DNA from: a virus
Reading direction: 5' to 3' (one strand)
IMG/VR virus record: IMGVR_UViG_3300036801_000401
Coordinates: 1-22,603 of that record
DNA length: 22,603 nt
This document shows, piece after piece, positions 1 to 17,150 of the stretch (positions are counted from its first letter, which is position 1; every line of letters begins with the position of its first letter). The notes under the pieces were generated by a model. That model ran no database searches and was not told the DNA's origin. It saw only the letters and a list, made by a program, of their open reading frames with translations. Both the position numbers and the translations under genes were made by a program.

Positions 1-747
1 GCAATCCTCGGGCTATTACTGGTTCCTCAATCGTCCAGCCCACTTCTTTCTGGGCGCATTGTGGACTCGAACGGCCACGCGGTTCCTGATGTGGCCGTCT
101 TAAGTCAGCTCTTTAATCCCACCGGCGGTTACAGCACTGTTAAGACCCACACCAATCCAGACGGCCAGTTCTCTCTGGCTGCTGACGGCAAAGTGGTTTT
201 CGTTAGGAAAGCCGGATTTGTTCCGTTTACGCACGTGCTGGCGCGCGATGAAAGGCAAGTGCAGCTCGTCCTGGAGCCACTCTCCCAGCTCAAGACCTTG
301 CATGTAGCGGGATGCTGGGACACGTATGGCGTGAATCGCCAGGTTTTGTCTTCACACAAGTTCAACCCCAAAGGCGTGACTCTATACGGCGAAGCTCATC
401 TTTACCCTGTTCCGAACAATGCAGCAGTTGAACATCAAAGTGACGTCGACTATGGCGCTCACATAGTTTCTTCCCCCAAAGGCCGCAAGAACCGCATGTT
501 CATTTACTGGGGTTTCTCGTATATCGGCGACTATCCCAACGTGCACCTTTTCGATAATGTGGTGGCGTTTACTGAGCGTGCTTTGAGCACGGCGGAAGAC
601 ACCGAAGAGATCAAAGGTACTCTCAAGAACGGGCACAAATTCCGCTGGGTCGGCGCAAGCCTGGGCTCTGTCTTTTATCATGACGTTACTCCTCAGGCCG
701 CGGAATATTTTGATCGCATTATCGACCAGGGCTGTGTATTGGATTGA
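1..747 (+). CDS. Secreted protein with N-terminal carboxypeptidase-regulatory-like domain (5' end outside window)
   Basis: The frame is open from base 1 and ends with TGA at 745-747, so the true start lies upstream. A GTG at 61 could be called as a start, but the residues before it (ILGLLLVPQSSS) look like the end of a signal peptide and run directly into the domain. Residues following this, GRIVDSNGHAVPDVAV and then TNPDGQFSL, fit a carboxypeptidase regulatory-like/CNA-B-type beta sandwich, a module common in exported Bacteroidota and Acidobacteriota proteins. The C-terminal ~150 residues are rich in aromatics and match no family I recognise. The protein is probably periplasmic or surface exposed. 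It converges on the nuclease-like gene, with only 23 bp between the stops and no clear terminator. Function unknown. Confidence 0.7.
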   Translation, partial: AILGLLLVPQSSSPLLSGRIVDSNGHAVPDVAVLSQLFNPTGGYSTVKTHTNPDGQFSLAADGKVVFVRKAGFVPFTHVLARDERQVQLVLEPLSQLKTLHVAGCWDTYGVNRQVLSSHKFNPKGVTLYGEAHLYPVPNNAAVEHQSDVDYGAHIVSSPKGRKNRMFIYWGFSYIGDYPNVHLFDNVVAFTERALSTAEDTEEIKGTLKNGHKFRWVGASLGSVFYHDVTPQAAEYFDRIIDQGCVLD

Positions 748-770
748 TTATCGCAAGCCAGCTCACAGGG

Positions 771-1466
771 CTAGACCCCTCGGCTAAACATTTTGACCTG
801 TTTTGCCGGATACGCACAAAGTTCTTTCACGGGACATTGATAGCACTGCGGAGATTTGTCTCGGCAGATTTCTTTTCCATGTTGCCGCAGCAGCAAATGC
901 GCTTGGGCAATGGCTTCGGGCTTGCGTGGAAGCTCCGGCTTCAATGCTTCCTGTACTGATCGGTAAGCTGCGCCGTAGTTTTCCTGCCACCGTCCATACC
1001 CAACGCGGGTCAACACACGCAGCCCGTTCCACTCCAGCGGTAGTCCGGGCGACGCGCCGCAAAACATCAGTATCTTTTCCGCTCCCGGGTCGCCGATATT
1101 AGGGAATTGCTTCAACGCTTTCTTGGCCTGCGCATATGGAAGTTTGAGTATCTGGTCCAGGTCGCCGCCGAACTGGCTTATCGTGATTCGTGCAATCTCC
1201 TGCCAGCGGAAAACACGCACCTTGGGGCGCATGCCGCCCATCGTGGCCAACGCCAGCAGCGTTTCGGGATCGGCGTTCAGTATTGCCTTGGGATTCAGGC
1301 CAACTTGCTTTCGCAGGCCTTCGAATACTTTGGCGCGCCGTTCATCCGGTAGTAGATAACAGGCGTTTTCCCACATCACCAGCTCAAACGGTCCCTTCGC
1401 CGGTGGCAGTTTGGGAGCGCCGTAAGCCCGCTTCAACGCGACAATGAGTTTCTTAAGATCAGGCAT
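771..1466 (-). CDS. Endonuclease III-like HhH-GPD protein with FeS cluster, atypical catalytic positions
   Basis: A 231-residue protein in the endonuclease III/MutY fold superfamily (base-excision DNA glycosylases). A helix-hairpin-helix lies at residues 121-133 (FPNIGDPGAEKIL). A C-terminal [4Fe-4S] loop has Cys201, Cys208, Cys211 and Cys217, in exact C-X6-C-X2-C-X5-C spacing. Aligning the hairpin with E. coli Nth (LPGVGRKTANVVL) puts Pro127 where catalytic Lys120 sits. Eighteen residues later, where Nth has Asp138, this protein has Glu145. It may therefore be a monofunctional glycosylase of unusual type, or a DNA-binding relative without lyase activity. ATG 1466 was chosen because the 25 residues upstream (from GTG 1541) look non-homologous. 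Neither start has a strong Shine-Dalgarno (SD) sequence. Family call is firm; activity is uncertain. Confidence 0.8.
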   Translation of the reverse strand: MPDLKKLIVALKRAYGAPKLPPAKGPFELVMWENACYLLPDERRAKVFEGLRKQVGLNPKAILNADPETLLALATMGGMRPKVRVFRWQEIARITISQFGGDLDQILKLPYAQAKKALKQFPNIGDPGAEKILMFCGASPGLPLEWNGLRVLTRVGYGRWQENYGAAYRSVQEALKPELPRKPEAIAQAHLLLRQHGKEICRDKSPQCYQCPVKELCAYPAKQVKMFSRGV

Positions 1467-1551
1467 CGCTGAGGAGCATAACCCAACGGGCAACTGTCTT
1501 CTATGGTGGGGGCGATCCACACGCAACAGTATATCTATCACTTTCTTTCGT

Positions 1552-1582
1552 GGGCTTTAGCCCCTGTAAACCGCTTCAGCGG
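1552..1582. repeat. Intergenic 15-mer hairpin (copy 1) plus adjacent short hairpin
   Basis: GGGCTTTAGCCCCTG at 1552-1566 folds as GGGCT/AGCCC. The identical 15-mer recurs at 6377-6391; both copies are preceded by TTCG (directly at 6377, two bases removed here) and lie upstream of a plus-strand ORF with a good SD. A second small hairpin, CCGCT-tc-AGCGG, follows at 1571-1582. Probably a dispersed genomic intergenic element; no function can be assigned. Confidence 0.55.
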
Positions 1583-1628
1583 CTGATTCGATCCACAAAA
1601 CATTTACAACCCAGCACAGGAGAACCCC

Positions 1629-1793
1629 ATGCCGCAATTCACCGACGATGAATTTATCGCCCGGCTCAGCGCCTGTCTCAGTCAATCCACCGACGGCATC
1701 GAACCCGAAACTCCCATTTTCAAAAATGACGACGGCTCCATCAACCGCGAAAAAACCCTGGCTTTACCTTGCTACTGGAATTTCAAACTCTAG
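1629..1793 (+). CDS. Small acidic hypothetical protein (54 aa)
   Basis: ATG at 1629 is preceded by a strong SD (AGGAGA 1618-1623, five bases away). The frame ends in TAG at 1791-1793. The product starts MPQFTDDEFIARLSACLSQS and ends CYWNFKL; it is acidic in the middle and has two cysteines, no signal peptide and no membrane segment. I do not recognise a family. The stop overlaps the stop of the convergent outer-membrane-type gene in the palindrome CTAG (1790-1793), so the two genes share stop bases on opposite strands. The SD and sensible composition argue for a real gene. It could also be the remnant of a longer gene cut off by its neighbour. Confidence 0.5.
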   Translation: MPQFTDDEFIARLSACLSQSTDGIEPETPIFKNDDGSINREKTLALPCYWNFKL

Positions 1794-3199
1794 AACAAAC
1801 TCGGCCTCGCTGAACTACCCAGCAATGACGTATTCACGTTCACGATCGTGTGCGTGCCCTCGTGCCCGCCAAACGCAAACAGCAGATACACCATCGGGAA
1901 CCCGCCGGCGCGCAGGTTCAGGCCTGCAGCATAGCTGTGCCTCCATGGATTGCTGCCCAGGTCGCCACGCAAAAGAGCGACCTTGCCCTGATCGGCGCGC
2001 ACCGTGATCCCCAATGGCAGTTTGCCGATCGAATGATCGAAGTTTTCCTGCAACAGCAGGACGTTGGGTGCCCGGAAACGGTAATCCTGATAGCTGCTCA
2101 GCGACGGATTTCCATTCAGGTCTGATCCGCCCAGCGTCGGCTGGAAATAAAACGGCACAACATTCGTTCCTGGCGTCATCGACAGGGAGTTGAACACCCG
2201 CAGCCCCAACGTCCCCACCTGGCTCGTTGTGGTAGTCGCATGCGGGCATGTCGAATCATCACTCGTGGCATCTTGGCGGCAATCGTTCGGACCATTGGCG
2301 TCCCTCGCTACGTACATGTTCGTGTGATGGATCGAAATTTCCTGGTAAAGATCGAACGTCAGCCGCTGGAATGAAAAACCCGAACCGTCTGTATCGATGA
2401 ACGGCTGATACATCGCGGCGTAATTGAAATGCAACAAATTATTCTTCGTCGCGGGCCGCATTCTCACTCCGACCCCCGGCTGCAGGAAGAAAGGCTGGTG
2501 CGCCAGTCCCGGCGCCGTCGTCGGCGTGTACAGCGTTTCGGTCGAAGGCGACCCGTTTCCGGTGCTCGAGCGAATATCCGGCAATCGCCCGTTCAACTCG
2601 GCGAAGATGCCCGCGTTGAGCTTCTGAAAGACCGGCCACACCGCGTTCCCGCCAACAATGTGTTCGGTCATCCCGAAGAACGATCGTCCGGCAGTTGTCG
2701 TTGCCGGCCCTTCGCCGAAGAACGCCAGTTTGTTGAGTGAGGTCGATTGCGCGTAGAAGTTGTAAACTGGTCGCTCCACATACGCTTGCACGTCGCCAAC
2801 GTCTTTCGGGACTCCCATTGTCCCCTCTGATCGTTCAATGTGCGTGCCCACAAATTTCAGGTAGAAGCCCGCACGCCATGATCCATTGCTCGATCCGATG
2901 GCATCCGCGCTCCAGGCTTTACTCCAGTCGTCGCCGTCTTTGTGGCCGACGTAAGCTAGTCCAGCGCCAAAGCCATTCTGCGGAGCAATGCTTCCCACCG
3001 CGATGTGCAGCGGCTGTCCGGTGAAGAGCACTTCAGCGCAGCCAACAATGTGCTTAGGACAGTTCTTTTTGAACTTGCCCGGCTCGGTTGCCGGCTCCTG
3101 CTCTTGTTCATTTTTCACGCCTGGACTTGGAGTCGGAGTGGGCTGTTGTGCCCAAACACTTGCCGAGAGCAACATGAATGCGAGAATAATTCGACGCAC
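1790..3199 (-). CDS. Exported protein, probable outer-membrane beta-barrel or surface protein
   Basis: A 469-residue protein starting at GTG 3199, six bases after AGGAG of the SD AGGAGA. The N-terminus RRIILAFMLLSASVWAQ is a signal peptide with likely cleavage after the final AQ. A Pro/Thr/Glu-rich linker follows, then long stretches of alternating hydrophobic and polar residues with many aromatics and glycines, typical of an outer-membrane beta barrel. Pairs of cysteines (NCPKHIVGC, NDCRQDATSDDSTC) suggest disulfides. A longer reading to 3331 would overlap the Lys-rich end of the upstream gene and bury the signal peptide, so it was rejected. Last gene of a three-gene minus-strand operon, 10 bp after its neighbour. 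No named family; the barrel assignment is inferred from pattern only. Confidence 0.7.
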   Translation of the reverse strand: MRRIILAFMLLSASVWAQQPTPTPSPGVKNEQEQEPATEPGKFKKNCPKHIVGCAEVLFTGQPLHIAVGSIAPQNGFGAGLAYVGHKDGDDWSKAWSADAIGSSNGSWRAGFYLKFVGTHIERSEGTMGVPKDVGDVQAYVERPVYNFYAQSTSLNKLAFFGEGPATTTAGRSFFGMTEHIVGGNAVWPVFQKLNAGIFAELNGRLPDIRSSTGNGSPSTETLYTPTTAPGLAHQPFFLQPGVGVRMRPATKNNLLHFNYAAMYQPFIDTDGSGFSFQRLTFDLYQEISIHHTNMYVARDANGPNDCRQDATSDDSTCPHATTTTSQVGTLGLRVFNSLSMTPGTNVVPFYFQPTLGGSDLNGNPSLSSYQDYRFRAPNVLLLQENFDHSIGKLPLGITVRADQGKVALLRGDLGSNPWRHSYAAGLNLRAGGFPMVYLLFAFGGHEGTHTIVNVNTSLLGSSARPSLF

Positions 3200-3209
3200 T
3201 GACTTCTCC

Positions 3210-3563
3210 TTACTTGCGCGACGTACGCTTCTTTTGAGCTGATTTGGTTTTTTTTCTGGACTTGCCGGTAGCCTTCTTGGCGGATGCTTTTTTCTTGGCC
3301 GGCTTCGATTTCTTTGTGGCTTTCTTCCCATGCTTGTGCAGCAGCGCCGTAACCTTTTGTATGTACTTGCTGGCCTGCCGCTCCGTGTGTAACGTATTGA
3401 TGTTAATATTCGTGTGCTCTTCCGGCGGGACCCTCAACTGCTCTGCATGGTGTAGATGCAGCAACTGCGTGCGGACCAGGCTCGAGATCGGCCGGTCAGG
3501 GTTGTAGGCCTCTTTTTCGTCAAACTCAATAATATCGACTGTGGGAGCGTCTTTGATCGCCAT
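3210..3563 (-). CDS. Small protein with histone-H1-like lysine-rich C-terminal tail
   Basis: 117 residues with two halves. Residues 1-79 form an acidic, His-containing globular part (LLHLHHAEQLRVPPEEH, then ERQASKYIQKVTALLHKHG). Residues 80-117 are a tail of Lys, Ala, Ser and Thr resembling histone H1/HU-type extensions (KKATKKSKPAKKKASAKKA). Such tails usually bind nucleic acid or polyanions; here that is inference. AAAGG lies a few bases upstream of ATG 3563. It sits 3 bp after the phosphoesterase stop and 10 bp before the exported-protein start, so the three are probably co-transcribed and translationally linked. I do not recognise the N-terminal family. Confidence 0.7.
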   Translation of the reverse strand: MAIKDAPTVDIIEFDEKEAYNPDRPISSLVRTQLLHLHHAEQLRVPPEEHTNININTLHTERQASKYIQKVTALLHKHGKKATKKSKPAKKKASAKKATGKSRKKTKSAQKKRTSRK

Positions 3564-3566
3564 ATC

Positions 3567-4811
3567 TCAGCCTTTCATCGCCTTGGGGAAAAATATGCAG
3601 TCATTGTCTGGACGCAGCGTGTCACCCAGCAGATCAAGAAAAGTTTCCGCGTTCTGCTCGCGCACCGTTCCGTGGTCCTGGCCGCCCAGGAAATGCTTGC
3701 TCACCGTCGCCGGTATCGACGAATGCTCGAAAATCCTGGGGTTCGGATCTTCAGTCCCTGGAACCACCGTTCCGCGCGGAATGTAAGGCGAAACCAGGAT
3801 CGCCGGTACGCGAATCCCCAATCGGTCGAACTTGAACGTGAGTCCGGGGACTCCGGTTGCCGCTTCGGGCGCCTTAAAGCCGTCCGGAGTGCAGTTTGGC
3901 GGAACCACGTGATCGTAGAGCCCGCCGTGCTCATCATAGACAATCAGCAGCACCGTGCTCTTCCATAGGTCAGGATTGATGCGGATGCAGTCATAAACTT
4001 TTCCGATGAAATTATCGCCCGCGAGCACATGATGATCGGGATGCTGGTCCGTGGCCAGCAACTGTCCGCCGCCCGGCCCCGGATGGTCCGTATAGTTTGG
4101 CTCCACAAAGCTGTACTCCGGCAGGTTCCCGGATTTGCAGTCGGCGACGAAGTCGCTGAAGACGCCAAAGAAGCTCTGGTCCTTGATCAGGTTTACGATC
4201 TCCATGGTCGAGCTCGGCAGATCGTAGTAATAAAGTTTGGCACCGTGCCCGCCAGCCGCCAGCCGCTCGTATATCGCCGGGATTTTCGCGCGGTCGGCGT
4301 CGCTGACCAGAAACATGTTCATGTCCACGTTGCCGAATGACGTGCCATAGTGCGCAAACGCCCGATTGCAGATTGTCGGGCCCGGAATCGAGGCAAACCA
4401 CCCGTTGAACACCGCGTACTCAGTCGCCAGCGAGGTCAAAACCGGAATCTTCTCTGGCGAAAAATATTTCATGATCGCGTGCGAATCCTGCACATTCGCC
4501 CCTTGCGTCCCGTAGCTCTGCACAAAGCCCTGCATGTTGGCCGCGCGTCCTGGAGCGAACGGCGCGCCGCCGTAAATCTGCACATCGACACCCGGAAAAT
4601 GATGGTCCGGATCATGGCTCAACTGCCCGCGATAATCCGCCGTCGGCGACACTTGCACCACGCTTCCCGCGCTGTCCGGGTTCGACTCGTTCCCGGTCAG
4701 CCCGTCTATCTTGGGAAATTTTTTCTTGAGTCCGCCCAGCATGTGGTCGAAGGAGCGGTTTTCCATCATCAGCACGACAATATGTTTCAGGTTATCCAAA
4801 CCTTGCGGCAT
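3567..4811 (-). CDS. Phosphoesterase of the phospholipase C/acid phosphatase family
   Basis: A 414-residue protein of the non-specific phospholipase C/AcpA phosphoesterase family (alkaline phosphatase superfamily; Pfam Phosphoesterase). Residues 11-23 (IVVLMMENRSFDH) carry the metal-binding Glu17-Asn18. IPGPTICNRAF contains the expected catalytic Ser/Thr position in the GPT motif. VYDEHGGLYDHVVPP supplies the second Asp-Glu pair and the DHV motif, and LGIRVPAILVSPYIPRG with a later EHSS is the typical C-terminal signature. It should hydrolyse phosphate mono- or diesters such as phospholipids. No signal peptide or twin-arginine motif precedes the fold, unlike secreted PLCs, so location is unclear. 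First gene of the operon with the Lys-rich and exported proteins. Substrate not predictable. Confidence 0.9.
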   Translation of the reverse strand: MPQGLDNLKHIVVLMMENRSFDHMLGGLKKKFPKIDGLTGNESNPDSAGSVVQVSPTADYRGQLSHDPDHHFPGVDVQIYGGAPFAPGRAANMQGFVQSYGTQGANVQDSHAIMKYFSPEKIPVLTSLATEYAVFNGWFASIPGPTICNRAFAHYGTSFGNVDMNMFLVSDADRAKIPAIYERLAAGGHGAKLYYYDLPSSTMEIVNLIKDQSFFGVFSDFVADCKSGNLPEYSFVEPNYTDHPGPGGGQLLATDQHPDHHVLAGDNFIGKVYDCIRINPDLWKSTVLLIVYDEHGGLYDHVVPPNCTPDGFKAPEAATGVPGLTFKFDRLGIRVPAILVSPYIPRGTVVPGTEDPNPRIFEHSSIPATVSKHFLGGQDHGTVREQNAETFLDLLGDTLRPDNDCIFFPKAMKG

Positions 4812-4970
4812 GCAGGCATCTCACTTTCATCTCAATGTTCAAAGGGGCTGTGTCCGTATAAAACACCACACCTGGTAGTTTAGTGGCGCAAGCGCTCGAA
4901 TCGTTACAGAAAACGGGACGAATTGTTTCATCCATCCAATTCAAGCATTGCTTGGAATGGAACAAATACT

Positions 4971-5375
4971 TTAATTCGGCAGCCGAAACTTGGCGTCCTC
5001 AGTCTTTTCAATTTCGCCCCCTTCTGCCATTCGGCGCAAAACGGTATGGATGGACGACAACAGATTCACTTGGCCCACGCCAATACCCATCTTCACCAGG
5101 TCCTCGCGGATATCGACTGGGCTTAGCGCCGTCTGGTGTATGCGGAACAGCCGCCTTATGGATTCGGTGAATCCCGGCTTGGCGTCAATGGCAAAGCCCT
5201 CCACCAGCAGCAGCTTGTCGATCTCCTCCGGAGGGGCGCCGCACATTTCGCCCAGGGCCTTGACTGTCTGTTTAAGTTTGCGGATCTTCTGGTCCAGGTC
5301 GTCTCGTTTCTGGAGCTGTTGCAGCAGATCGGCCTTTGCTGTCGCATAAGCCTGCTTGTAAGTTTCGCGCGCCAT
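4971..5375 (-). CDS. Coiled-coil plus winged-helix (HARE-HTH-like) small protein
   Basis: 134 residues. Residues ~10-45 (DLLQQLQKRDDLDQKIRKLK) are strongly heptad-like. Residues ~72-133 (FTESIRRLFRIHQTALSPVD through SSIHTVLRRMAEGGEIEKTE) resemble the HARE-HTH/winged-helix domain found at the C-terminus of many small acidobacterial proteins and in RpoE delta. It probably binds DNA or a transcription factor as a coiled-coil oligomer; target unknown. ATG 5375 was chosen over TTG 5396. No SD is visible for either, but a TTGACA/TAGACT promoter on this strand places transcription start only a few bases before 5375, so the mRNA may be leaderless. Confidence 0.75.
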   Translation of the reverse strand: MARETYKQAYATAKADLLQQLQKRDDLDQKIRKLKQTVKALGEMCGAPPEEIDKLLLVEGFAIDAKPGFTESIRRLFRIHQTALSPVDIREDLVKMGIGVGQVNLLSSIHTVLRRMAEGGEIEKTEDAKFRLPN

Positions 5376-5385
5376 AAGTGTCTGA

Positions 5386-5414
5386 AGTCTAAGCAATGTC
5401 TAAATAATTGTCAA
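5386..5414 (-). promoter_or_regulatory. Sigma-70-type promoter for the coiled-coil/HTH gene
   Basis: On the minus strand, a perfect -35 TTGACA (5414-5409) is followed after 17 bp by TAGACT (5391-5386, 4/6). Predicted +1 is about 5379-5380, four or five bases before ATG 5375. Confidence 0.5.
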
Positions 5415-13271: not shown

Positions 13272-14024
13272 ATGTTTGAATTTGGTGCAGGTACCTTGTG
13301 GGGCTTTCCCGTAGGCGGCAATACCGCCGCCAACCCCACTCCCATGAAATTCGGAACGCTGCAGGATGTATCGCTCGATATCTCGGGCGACGTCAAGCAG
13401 CTTTACGGACAAAAGCAGTTTCCTGAGGCTGTGGCACGTGGGAAATGCAAGATCACCGGCAAATCCAAGTTTGCCGCCATCAACGGCAAAATGCTGAATG
13501 ACCTTTTCTTCGGACAGACAATGCCTGCCGGCATGAAACAAGTGTCTCTGGATGAATCTCACCCCATCCCCGCTACGCCTTTCCAGGTGACGATTGTCCC
13601 ACCAAACTCCGGCGTGTTTGTCCAGGATTGGGGAGTACGTTACGCGGCCACCGGGCTCCCATTTACCCGCGTTGCCTCTGCCCCTGTGTTGGGACAGTAT
13701 TCCGTCACTGCAGGCGGGGTTTACACGTTTGCCTCGGCGGATAACGTGGCTGGCGCCGTAGCTCTTATCAGCTACACATACTCGCTTGCGGCTGTCGGAT
13801 CACAGCTCAATATCACCAACCAGCTCATGGGCTTCGCGCCGACCATCCAGGTGCTGCTGGAAAATGTTTACAACGGCAACCAATTCAACGTGCTTCTCTA
13901 CTCGGTTGTGGCATCCAAGCTCACGTTTGCCACCAAGCAGGAAGACTTCATCATTCCTGAGTTTGACTTTGAGGCCTTCGCTAACGCCGCCGGCCAGGTC
14001 ATCGACATGTACTCCAACGAATAG
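13272..14024 (+). CDS. Major tail tube protein
   Basis: 250 residues from ATG 13272 with AGGAGA just upstream. MKFGTLQDVSLDISGDVKQL and GKCKITGKSKFAAINGKMLN are characteristic of siphoviral tail tube proteins, as is the C-terminal EDFIIPEFDFEAFANAAGQV. Residues ~118-170 contain an inserted beta module, GQYSVTAGGVYTFASADN followed by ALISYTYS, that recurs in shorter form in the host-specificity protein at about 20490. Hexameric rings of this protein form the tail tube. Expected counterpart is RcGTA g9. A strong intrinsic terminator follows at 14036-14069. Confidence 0.85.
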   Translation: MFEFGAGTLWGFPVGGNTAANPTPMKFGTLQDVSLDISGDVKQLYGQKQFPEAVARGKCKITGKSKFAAINGKMLNDLFFGQTMPAGMKQVSLDESHPIPATPFQVTIVPPNSGVFVQDWGVRYAATGLPFTRVASAPVLGQYSVTAGGVYTFASADNVAGAVALISYTYSLAAVGSQLNITNQLMGFAPTIQVLLENVYNGNQFNVLLYSVVASKLTFATKQEDFIIPEFDFEAFANAAGQVIDMYSNE

Positions 14025-14107: not shown

Positions 14108-14419
14108 ATGCTTAAGCAGCAAACTGTCCCCACATCGCTGGGACAACTTACGGTTTCATCGCTCACGCTGGGTGAATTGCGCCAGCTGGACTCGCTGTTC
14201 CAGGATAAGTCTTCCGCGGAAAACCCCGGGCTGGCTTCATTGCTCCGCTATCTGCCCGTGATCCAGAATGCCATTAGGAAGGTACACCAGGACCTCACTG
14301 CGGAGCAGCTTGAGAACGGCCTTACCTTTGACGATTTCAATGTTCTTTTCAATGCCATGCTTGAGGTCTCCGGCCTGAAGAAGGCGGCCGCGGGGGAACC
14401 GACTCCGGTACCGGTATAG
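14108..14419 (+). CDS. Tail assembly chaperone, N-terminal frame (gpG-like)
   Basis: 103 residues from ATG 14108 with AGGAG immediately upstream. SLTLGELRQLDSLFQDKSSA and TFDDFNVLFNAMLEVSGLKK fit small helical chaperones that coat the tape measure during tail assembly. The gene lies in the expected place between tail tube and tape measure. Near its 3' end the -1 frame opens at 14365 and continues to 14700 without its own start codon before 14488. It therefore probably also makes a frameshifted longer product, as lambda G/GT does. Confidence 0.8.
   Translation: MLKQQTVPTSLGQLTVSSLTLGELRQLDSLFQDKSSAENPGLASLLRYLPVIQNAIRKVHQDLTAEQLENGLTFDDFNVLFNAMLEVSGLKKAAAGEPTPVPV
14392..14398 (+). promoter_or_regulatory. 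Candidate -1 frameshift slippery site
   Basis: The heptamer G GGG GAA, read as codons GCG GGG GAA, is the best run of identical bases in the window where both frames are open (14365-14418). P-site re-pairing would be perfect; the A-site would pair imperfectly. No other XXXYYYZ-like site is visible there. Confidence 0.4.
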
Positions 14420-14700
14420 CCGACTGGCCGTTCGTTTTTGGCCACGTTGCCACCGCTACCGGATGGACATTCTCCGAGATCGAGCAGATGACTCTGTGGG
14501 ATCTGAATGATTTGATGGCTTACTGGAAAGACTATCCGCCGACCCACGTGCTGGTGGCAGCTTACCTAATGGGCGGCAAACGACATTCAGCCAACAAATC
14601 ACTAAGGCAAGCTGACAACAGTTTTGGTGAATTGGCGCAGGCTGTGTCTTTTGCTGGCGGAAGTGTAACCAAAAAACTTCCGCAGTTTTATAAGACCTAA
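14398..14700 (+). CDS. Tail assembly chaperone, -1 frame extension (gpGT-like)
   Basis: The -1 frame relative to the preceding chaperone is open from 14365 to the TAA at 14698-14700. It encodes ADWPFVFGHVATATGWTFSE, then MTLWDLNDLMAYWKDYPPTH and a basic tail. The W...E.M.L.DL..L..YW...PPTH pattern is typical of the second domain of tail assembly chaperones. The similarity begins well before the first ATG (14488), and no ATG, GTG, TTG or CTG exists between 14365 and 14487 in this frame. Expression by -1 frameshift is therefore the most economical reading, giving a fusion of about 197 aa. An independent start at ATG 14488 (70 aa) would lose the domain start. Confidence 0.65.
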   Translation, partial: TDSGTGIADWPFVFGHVATATGWTFSEIEQMTLWDLNDLMAYWKDYPPTHVLVAAYLMGGKRHSANKSLRQADNSFGELAQAVSFAGGSVTKKLPQFYKT

Positions 14701-14833: not shown

Positions 14834-15238
14834 ATGCAAAAGGTGGTCGTACTGTTGCTGTTCGTCTTGTTGGGGTGTTCCTCCAACAAGTTGGATCAGG
14901 GTAAGCACACCGTCAGAGACGGGTGTGATTCGGTGGCTTTTTTTTTCACGGTTGCTTCAAAGGCCGTGGCGGAGATTCAGAATATTTACGAAATAACCAG
15001 TCAGAAGACCGAAGTCGAATACACATGGAAATGGACGCTGGAGTGGTCAGGAGTCAAATTGGTCGACAACTTGACCCAGCCCGACCTGATTGAAGTAAAT
15101 GCCAATTTACAAGAAGTGGAACTGCATCGCCGACCAAACCCAACGTTCAATTTGGCGGACATGGTTCAAAGCGTTACGCCTCGCCCCGGAAAAGCAATGC
15201 TGAAGAAGTCCGGCGACGGCTGGGTCCTGGACGAGTAG
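14834..15238 (+). CDS. Small lipoprotein, cargo (moron) gene within tail cluster
   Basis: 134 residues. Residues 1-15 (MQKVVVLLLFVLLGC) are a lipoprotein signal with lipobox LLGC, so Cys15 would be lipidated and the protein anchored in the inner or outer membrane. The mature part contains DSVAFFFTVASKAVAEIQNI, a WKWTLEWSG strand and a Lys-rich end; no family recognised. ATG 14834 has GGGGAGA upstream. The gene sits between tail chaperone and tape measure, a spot normally without extra genes. It has its own promoter candidate and is closed by an intrinsic terminator, the classic moron layout. It might act in lysogenic conversion or superinfection exclusion (inference). Codon use is less GC-rich than its neighbours. 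Confidence 0.75.
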   Translation: MQKVVVLLLFVLLGCSSNKLDQGKHTVRDGCDSVAFFFTVASKAVAEIQNIYEITSQKTEVEYTWKWTLEWSGVKLVDNLTQPDLIEVNANLQEVELHRRPNPTFNLADMVQSVTPRPGKAMLKKSGDGWVLDE

Positions 15239-15284: not shown

Positions 15285-15317
15285 ATTGCAGTGAAACCAG
15301 TCTGGAGAGACACAGTT

Positions 15318-17150
15318 ATGTCCGAAACCGTCACCATCGAGCTCAAGGCCGACCCGTCTGGAGCGAAAGAAGCGCTCCAGCAGGTCAACAATTCTCTGAA
15401 GGAAGGCACAGAAGCTGCCGAAGCTCTAAGCCATGTTCTCGATGGCGATGTGGCGGGCGCATTCAAGTCTCTTGGCGAACTGAGTAAAACCTTGGGGATC
15501 GAGCTCGGCCTGGCGTTTAGCCCGGCTGAAATCATCGCCTTTGTTCAGGTCATTGCCGATGTAACCGACAAGCTGAGCAAGTTAATCGCGGACACCTTCA
15601 TCTATACGGACGAGCAAAAGGCTCTGGATGCCCAGATCAAATCGTCAAATCAAGTTATTGCGGGCTATGCAACGGATATCAAAAAGTTAGACGACGAATT
15701 CGAGAAGATGGGCAAAACCGCGTCGCAGAAGACCGCGATCGATATCGCAAAGCTGGAATCCGAATTGAAAGACGCCAGCAACGCGGTGTATACGCTCACG
15801 GGAGATCTGAGGCAGGCGAAAGAGAACGCTGCGGACCCCAACCTCATTAATGCGCTGGGCAACGAGAAGGCAATACCCGGCATCACTGACGCGCTCGGAG
15901 TTGCCCAACAGCATCTAAAACTCCTTCTCGCCCAGATGCGCAATCTCAAAGAGGCGTTCCGAGAGCAGCACGCCGCCGAATTAGAGGCAGATACTGAAGC
16001 ACAGAGGAGTAAGGCCGCATTCGAAAAAACGCAGAAAAGCAAAGTTACCACGGTAGATACGACCACCTCGGCCATTATTTCAATCGACGAAAAGGGCAAT
16101 CAGCAAACAATGGCGGCAGATTTTGCCGCCATTAAAGCTGAAAACGACGCAGTCATTAAAGCCGCCAATGAGCAGTTGCAGACCTGGGACGAGGGATACA
16201 AAGGCCAGATTGAAGTCGCTAAGATCGCCAGCGAAACCAAAATCCAACTCATCACGCAAGACTTTGAAAAAGGCAAAATTAGCCAGCAACAGGAAATAGC
16301 GTTGATTGCGAAGGCGAAACAGGATGAGCTGCAACTGGAAATCTTTTATCAGCAGCAGCGCCAGGCGCTTTGGGATAAAGACCCGAAGAAGGTTCAGGAA
16401 ATCCAGAATCAGATCGACAAGATTAAGGCGCAAGGCGAACTGGTTGCGGCCAAAGCACAGACTGACAGTTTGAGGCTACAGGAAAAGAATCTTACCCAGT
16501 TCTTCTCCAAGGTCAAGAGCGCCATGGATCAATCCATCAGCGGCTTCCTCAAGGGAACAGAGAGCTTCGCTAAAGCTTGGCAAAACATGTGGTCGGATAT
16601 GGTCGTTTCCATGGTGCAAAAGCTGGCAGACATGATGCTGAAGTGGGTTGAGCATCACGTAGCCATGCTTGTGATACATGCAACAGAAAAAGAAGGCGAG
16701 GTGGCGGCGGATGCTTCCGCAGCAGCCGAATCAAAAGGGATAAGCCTGGCTGATGCGATTGCCAAAATTCATCACAGCGCAGCAGCGGCAGCTTCACGAG
16801 TGTACGAAGCGGAAGCGCCTCTTGGACCCGTTATTGCCGGATTGCTGGCAGCCGGAACCTACACCGCAGTGCTGGGTTTTGGGGCCATGGCTTCCGCCGA
16901 GGGTGGTCAGTACTACGTTCCCAACAATCAGCTCACCATGTTGCATCCGCAGGAAATGGTGCTGCCGGCCGGAATCGCCAATCAAATGCGCAATGTGATT
17001 GGAAGCGGAGGCGGCGGAGGCGTGACGGTAGTCGTCAATCATTCCGTCAGTGCAGTAGACGCTTCCTCATTCCAGTCGCACATCCGCCGGTACAGCAACA
17101 TGATCGCCAATGAGGTAACGCGAGCGCTCAAGCGGAAAGGAGTCAGATGA
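15318..17150 (+). CDS. Tail tape measure protein
   Basis: 610 residues from ATG 15318 with GGAGAG eight bases upstream. The N-terminal two thirds are long helices and coiled coils (EQKALDAQIKSSNQVIAGYA, QIEVAKIASETKIQLITQDF). They are followed by a hydrophobic, Ala-rich segment (EAPLGPVIAGLLAAGTYTAV) and a conserved C-terminal part, GGQYYVPNNQLTMLHPQEMV, where tape measures of this group end in a Gly-rich linker and helix. The protein sets tail length and probably passes into the target cell envelope. At about 1.5 angstrom per residue this predicts a tail near 90 nm (inference). It overlaps the next gene by ATGA. Counterpart of RcGTA g11. Confidence 0.9.
   Translation: MSETVTIELKADPSGAKEALQQVNNSLKEGTEAAEALSHVLDGDVAGAFKSLGELSKTLGIELGLAFSPAEIIAFVQVIADVTDKLSKLIADTFIYTDEQKALDAQIKSSNQVIAGYATDIKKLDDEFEKMGKTASQKTAIDIAKLESELKDASNAVYTLTGDLRQAKENAADPNLINALGNEKAIPGITDALGVAQQHLKLLLAQMRNLKEAFREQHAAELEADTEAQRSKAAFEKTQKSKVTTVDTTTSAIISIDEKGNQQTMAADFAAIKAENDAVIKAANEQLQTWDEGYKGQIEVAKIASETKIQLITQDFEKGKISQQQEIALIAKAKQDELQLEIFYQQQRQALWDKDPKKVQEIQNQIDKIKAQGELVAAKAQTDSLRLQEKNLTQFFSKVKSAMDQSISGFLKGTESFAKAWQNMWSDMVVSMVQKLADMMLKWVEHHVAMLVIHATEKEGEVAADASAAAESKGISLADAIAKIHHSAAAAASRVYEAEAPLGPVIAGLLAAGTYTAVLGFGAMASAEGGQYYVPNNQLTMLHPQEMVLPAGIANQMRNVIGSGGGGGVTVVVNHSVSAVDASSFQSHIRRYSNMIANEVTRALKRKGVR

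Follow-up and report, generated by a model that had tools for sequence, protein, structure and literature searches.

Predicted −1 ribosomal frameshifting at a conserved G GGG GAA heptamer in a lambda G/GT-type tail assembly chaperone gene pair of a soil phage

The window described here is the whole of a 22,603-nt stretch of IMGVR_UViG_3300036801_000401, a soil phage. On its plus strand, an ORF at 14108–14419 encodes a putative, gpG-like tail assembly chaperone of 103 amino acids, whose ATG at 14108 is immediately preceded by the SD sequence AGGAG and which ends at a TAG at 14417–14419. A second plus-strand frame, displaced by −1, is open from 14365 to 14697 and stops at 14698–14700. Direct reading of the sequence confirmed what a first-pass annotation had stated of this frame: it opens at 14365, overlapping the chaperone ORF, and scanning from that point shows no ATG, GTG, TTG or CTG before 14488, where the first of these, an ATG, is found. 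By our count the opening lies 52 nt 5′ of the chaperone TAG. The frame encodes a T-like domain from about 14395, and the conserved domain sequence (...DWPFVFGHVATATGW...) already begins 5′ of the ATG at 14488, also as the annotation had it.

The short chaperone ORF sits between a plus-strand ORF at 13272–14024, which matches phrog_8234 (of unknown function, E 6.1e-66) and from gene order is probably the major tail protein gene, and a tape measure protein gene at 15291–17150 on the same strand (phrog_2854, E 1.9e-16). This is the lambda-type gene order, with the tail protein assigned by position. An ORF for a lipoprotein-like protein of 134 amino acids (14834–15238, plus strand; MQKVVVLLLFVLLGCSSNK...) follows the T frame and precedes the tape measure gene. 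ORFs with a lipobox occur at the same place in about 9 of the 22 relatives checked (L005, L006, L008, L016, L018, L037, L039, L045 and L050), and the gene is possibly of the superinfection-exclusion type. Elsewhere, positions 1–5400 of the window carry long minus-strand ORFs unlike phage structural genes (3567–4811 and 771–1541, for example), possibly host DNA beside a prophage.

The structural model of the upstream protein (pLDDT 82) matched by VIA the HK97 tail assembly chaperone (2OB9, Z 6.3), YqbN (3KLU, Z 6.2) and 5IR0 (Z 5.3); these three chains stand clear of unrelated chains, which scored Z 3.2 and below. Foldseek of the same model against the PDB alone returned no significant E-value; near the top among viral models, many entries carry the name tail assembly chaperone, GT of phage N15 being one, at E above 0.01. 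The predicted structure, at moderate Z values, thus indicates a tail-chaperone fold for the upstream protein. The model of the T domain is of low confidence (pLDDT 67.8). A Pfam search with both domains gave nothing relevant, and in PHROGs the window's own proteins match phrog_7947 (first part) and phrog_8018 (second part), both listed as families of unknown function.

Searches with the downstream domain as query gathered 17 viral loci at first, 23 in a later round and 44 in the end, plus a further locus in an Acidobacteriaceae MAG, whose chaperone is 94% identical to that of the window. Because this MAG carries so closely matching a locus, the host of the window phage is probably an acidobacterium. 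Distant relatives have roughly 27–46% identity in the T domain. In every intact locus compared, the domain is encoded at −1 relative to a chaperone-like ORF, and a +1 or −2 shift was rejected on this ground. When the window's own two proteins were used in tblastn against named phages, one gave a single weak match and the other none; searches that started from distant relatives led to three named phages. A scan for the DNA pattern gave 64 stretches, and contigs of relatives already known account for many of these.

At 14392–14398 on the plus strand, in phase with the chaperone frame, lies the candidate slippery heptamer G GGG GAA, read in the zero frame as GCG GGG GAA CCG. It is the single copy of GGGGGAA on the plus strand of the window, and because this sequence is rare (7 further copies in 338,701 plus-strand bases across all compared loci), chance alone would not be expected to place an in-phase copy within so short an overlap. 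The heptamer is in phase in 30 of 30 intact close loci, the window included, and in 18 distant records, among them the named Acinetobacter phages 5W and vB_AbaSI_5 and Pseudomonas phage KT1; in 5W it abuts the stop codon (GGG GAA TAG). GGG GAA is kept in all 30 distinct close loci after a GCG, ACG, GTG or CAG codon, and distant relatives have NNG GGG GAA with CCG, TCG, CAG, CGG, TTG or ATG ahead. The residue encoded before GGG varies accordingly (Ala, Thr, Val, Gln, Pro, Ser, Arg, Leu or Met), and the codon always ends in G. Given Gly-Glu at the site and local codon use, NNG GGG GAA would be expected by chance at about 1–4% per locus, a figure that does not describe independent trials because the loci are kin; the distant loci nevertheless share little else there, keeping the heptamer while most of the flanking sequence is unrelated. 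Both the offset of the frames and the GGGGGAA run, whose conservation the first-pass annotation had proposed as a check, are kept in close and very distant relatives.

The place of a shift can be narrowed further in some relatives. Among the first 18 loci, 7 have a −1 frame stop, made by CTT AAG or CTT AAA, that delays the opening of the frame to just 15 nt before the GGA codon. In those loci the shift is confined between this opening and the TAG, to about 40 nt that contain no slippery sequence other than the G run. Two loci depart from the common pattern. At 3923–3929, close to where its chaperone ORF ends, L059 carries G GGA AAG, the heptamer of lambda, in place of G GGG GAA, possibly a natural swap of slip sites. 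At about 3990–4010 of L045 there are six Gs rather than five, and the chaperone and T domain form one continuous ORF; the fusion may be natural, as a mutant, or may stem from an assembly error.

Elements that could stimulate a shift flank the heptamer on both sides. From the anti-SD pairing profile, the candidate on the 5′ side is an SD-like AAGG at 14381–14384 on the plus strand, 7 nt before the heptamer. An SD-like core (GGAG, GAGG, AGGA or AAGG) lies 7–13 nt before the heptamer in 28 of the 30 close and 13 of the 18 distant loci, whereas 9% of the control positions taken upstream within those genes have one. The SD spacing reported for −1 sites is 9–14 nt (PMC5009743); that in the window is somewhat closer, whereas a spacing of 9 or 10 nt is common among the distant loci. 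On the 3′ side, a stem-loop is predicted at 14404–14463 (plus strand), with one helix formed by 14404–14415 and 14452–14463 and a second by 14419–14430 and 14439–14450. Starting 5–6 nt 3′ of the heptamer, it has the zero-frame stop inside it, with an energy of −32.4 kcal/mol and a z of −3.97 in the window and a z of −3.0 to −5.2 in five close relatives. Across 31 sequences, 95.9% of the stem-loop cells are paired; compensatory changes are few (3 cells in 2 pairs), and most pairs never vary. In the 3′ arm, the silent third positions of GCT ACC GGA, which is coding in one frame only, are 97–100% constant, versus 37–73% in flanking degenerate codons. In the overlap region both frames constrain the sequence, which is by itself enough to freeze some sites. 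The stem-loop is thus argued for by silent-site conservation and energy better than by covariation, which is weak. Strong stems are found at near-equal distance in distant loci such as L040, L056 and L060, and weak ones in others such as L059 and L065. A stem-loop 3′ of 14398, for which the first-pass annotation had suggested a search, is therefore predicted and conserved in relatives.

The arrangement of the frames, the heptamer, its conservation, the absence of alternative starts, the stem-loop and the chaperone-like predicted fold together make it very likely, as read from sequence and models, that the two frames form a tail assembly chaperone pair of the lambda G/GT type and are expressed through −1 programmed ribosomal frameshifting. 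The first-pass annotation had proposed such a frameshift in the chaperone, and the comparison with close and distant relatives supports that prediction. We infer the slippage itself, its efficiency, the tRNAs that move and a lambda-like division of labor to be as follows. The majority of ribosomes would translate the chaperone ORF as far as its TAG at 14417, giving the short form of 103 amino acids. A minority would slip back one base on G GGG GAA, aided by the AAGG upstream and the two-tier stem-loop downstream, and read the −1 frame to 14697, giving a chaperone–T fusion of about 197 amino acids. If both tRNAs moved, the predicted length would be 197 amino acids, which agrees with the length annotated earlier, and the junction would read AAAGE-TDSG; if the P-site tRNA alone moved, it would read AAAGG-TDSG. 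If the division of labor follows that of lambda (PMC5009743), the short form may coat the tape measure protein and the T part may recruit the tail tube protein.

Could the downstream domain reach its place by another route? If it were translated alone, the ribosome would have to start by termination-reinitiation at the AUA at 14416–14418 or at the internal ATG at 14488. The former is suggested by the overlap of ATA with the stop, as ATAG, in 28 of the 30 close loci, but L032 and L044 carry GTA there, and the frozen silent sites extend 5′ of the ATA as far as the heptamer, which distant relatives keep even though its distance from the stop differs. The latter is present in the window but in only 2 of 30 loci, where the others mostly have CTT or CTG, and a start there would lose the conserved first part of the domain. 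With neither start conserved, and with no conserved start for the downstream frame among the relatives compared (the first-pass annotation had named such a start in homologues as evidence that would refute its reading), we reject translation from an own start and regard it as very improbable.

Two other explanations seem to us less probable still, and about equally so. One holds that a single frame has been split by an indel, through sequencing error or gene decay, and L045, with one extra G in the run, does show the fused state. Yet L045 may itself be an assembly error, and every other contig shows the two frames split, whether it comes from one of many separate metagenomes, from a MAG or from a cultured phage. 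Fused homologues, which would likewise have spoken against the earlier annotation, are absent but for this 1 locus in about 50. Both frames are conserved at the protein level with the same heptamer, and 48 loci have the same arrangement; sequencing error is excluded by about 50 loci. The other would have the fusion made by transcriptional rather than ribosomal slippage on the G run, as its homopolymeric nature and the extra G in L045 might suggest. Five Gs, however, are few for known transcriptional slippage; moreover, the AA after the run is invariant too, L059 has in G GGA AAG a ribosomal site without a long run, and the SD-like element and 3′ stem are positioned as at ribosomal −1 sites. 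Transcriptional slippage was rejected because the run is too short and the AA is conserved.

The preferred reading, −1 ribosomal frameshifting, nevertheless involves an imperfect re-pairing. The shift from GGG to GGG lets the Gly-tRNA re-pair, but that from GAA to GGA leaves the Glu-tRNA with a U–G pair in the middle position. At a canonical X XXY YYZ site both tRNAs are matched at the first two codon positions, and at GGGGGAA they are not; because of the middle-position mismatch, the site is of the GGGGGAA class rather than strict XXXYYYZ. A more doubtful extension, to which we give clearly less than even chances, is that, for a widespread chaperone family (phrog_7947 plus phrog_8018) in phages of unrelated hosts, G GGG GAA is both the ancestral and the near-universal signal and works mainly by slippage of a single P-site Gly-tRNA. 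If it were so, the protein should contain the ...AAAGG-TDSG... junction, not ...AAAGE-TDSG....

More generally, the analysis suggests a function for phrog_7947 and phrog_8018. The pair also occurs in annotated phages as unconnected genes; in Acinetobacter phage 5W, for example (L131, 1187–1761), its members are entered as two hypothetical proteins, QKN84138.1 and QKN84139.1. How a class of site with a mismatched second codon works is a mechanistic question, for which this family offers a clean natural test set.

Among known systems, the nearest in organization is the conserved tail-assembly frameshift of long-tailed double-stranded DNA phages, as in lambda gpG/gpGT (PMC5009743). The window shares with it the order of genes (by position, tail protein, then chaperone, then tape measure), a conserved overlapping −1 frame whose domain has no start of its own, and a conserved in-phase slippery sequence near the end of the first ORF, where the shift would occur. 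It differs in having G GGG GAA rather than lambda's G GGA AAG, and a Pfam search detects no sequence homology. With HK97 2OB9 and YqbN 3KLU the upstream protein shares a predicted fold, at an identity of 7–15% and a Z of only about 6. The first-pass annotation had called the heptamer a variant slippery site, and the description holds in that it differs from the lambda heptamer, but the variant is not new (PMC10885494, PMC5506516). GGGGGAA (“fivetwo”) has been reported by PRFect in about a thousand chaperone genes of SEA-PHAGES actinobacteriophages, with G:U re-pairing proposed for the second tRNA (PMC10885494). Those sites have the identical heptamer, in tail assembly chaperone genes and in the −1 direction, whereas the host group is another and here the stem and SD-like element emerge from comparing relatives. 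In corynephage phi16, a frameshift was predicted in tail assembly genes from an internal SD (GAGG), GGGGGAA and a 3′ RNA structure (PMC5506516). The same three parts recur in the window, but the structure given for phi16 is an H-type pseudoknot and that predicted here is a two-tier stem-loop. The gene pair is thus a solid further case of a known kind of frameshift rather than a new kind.
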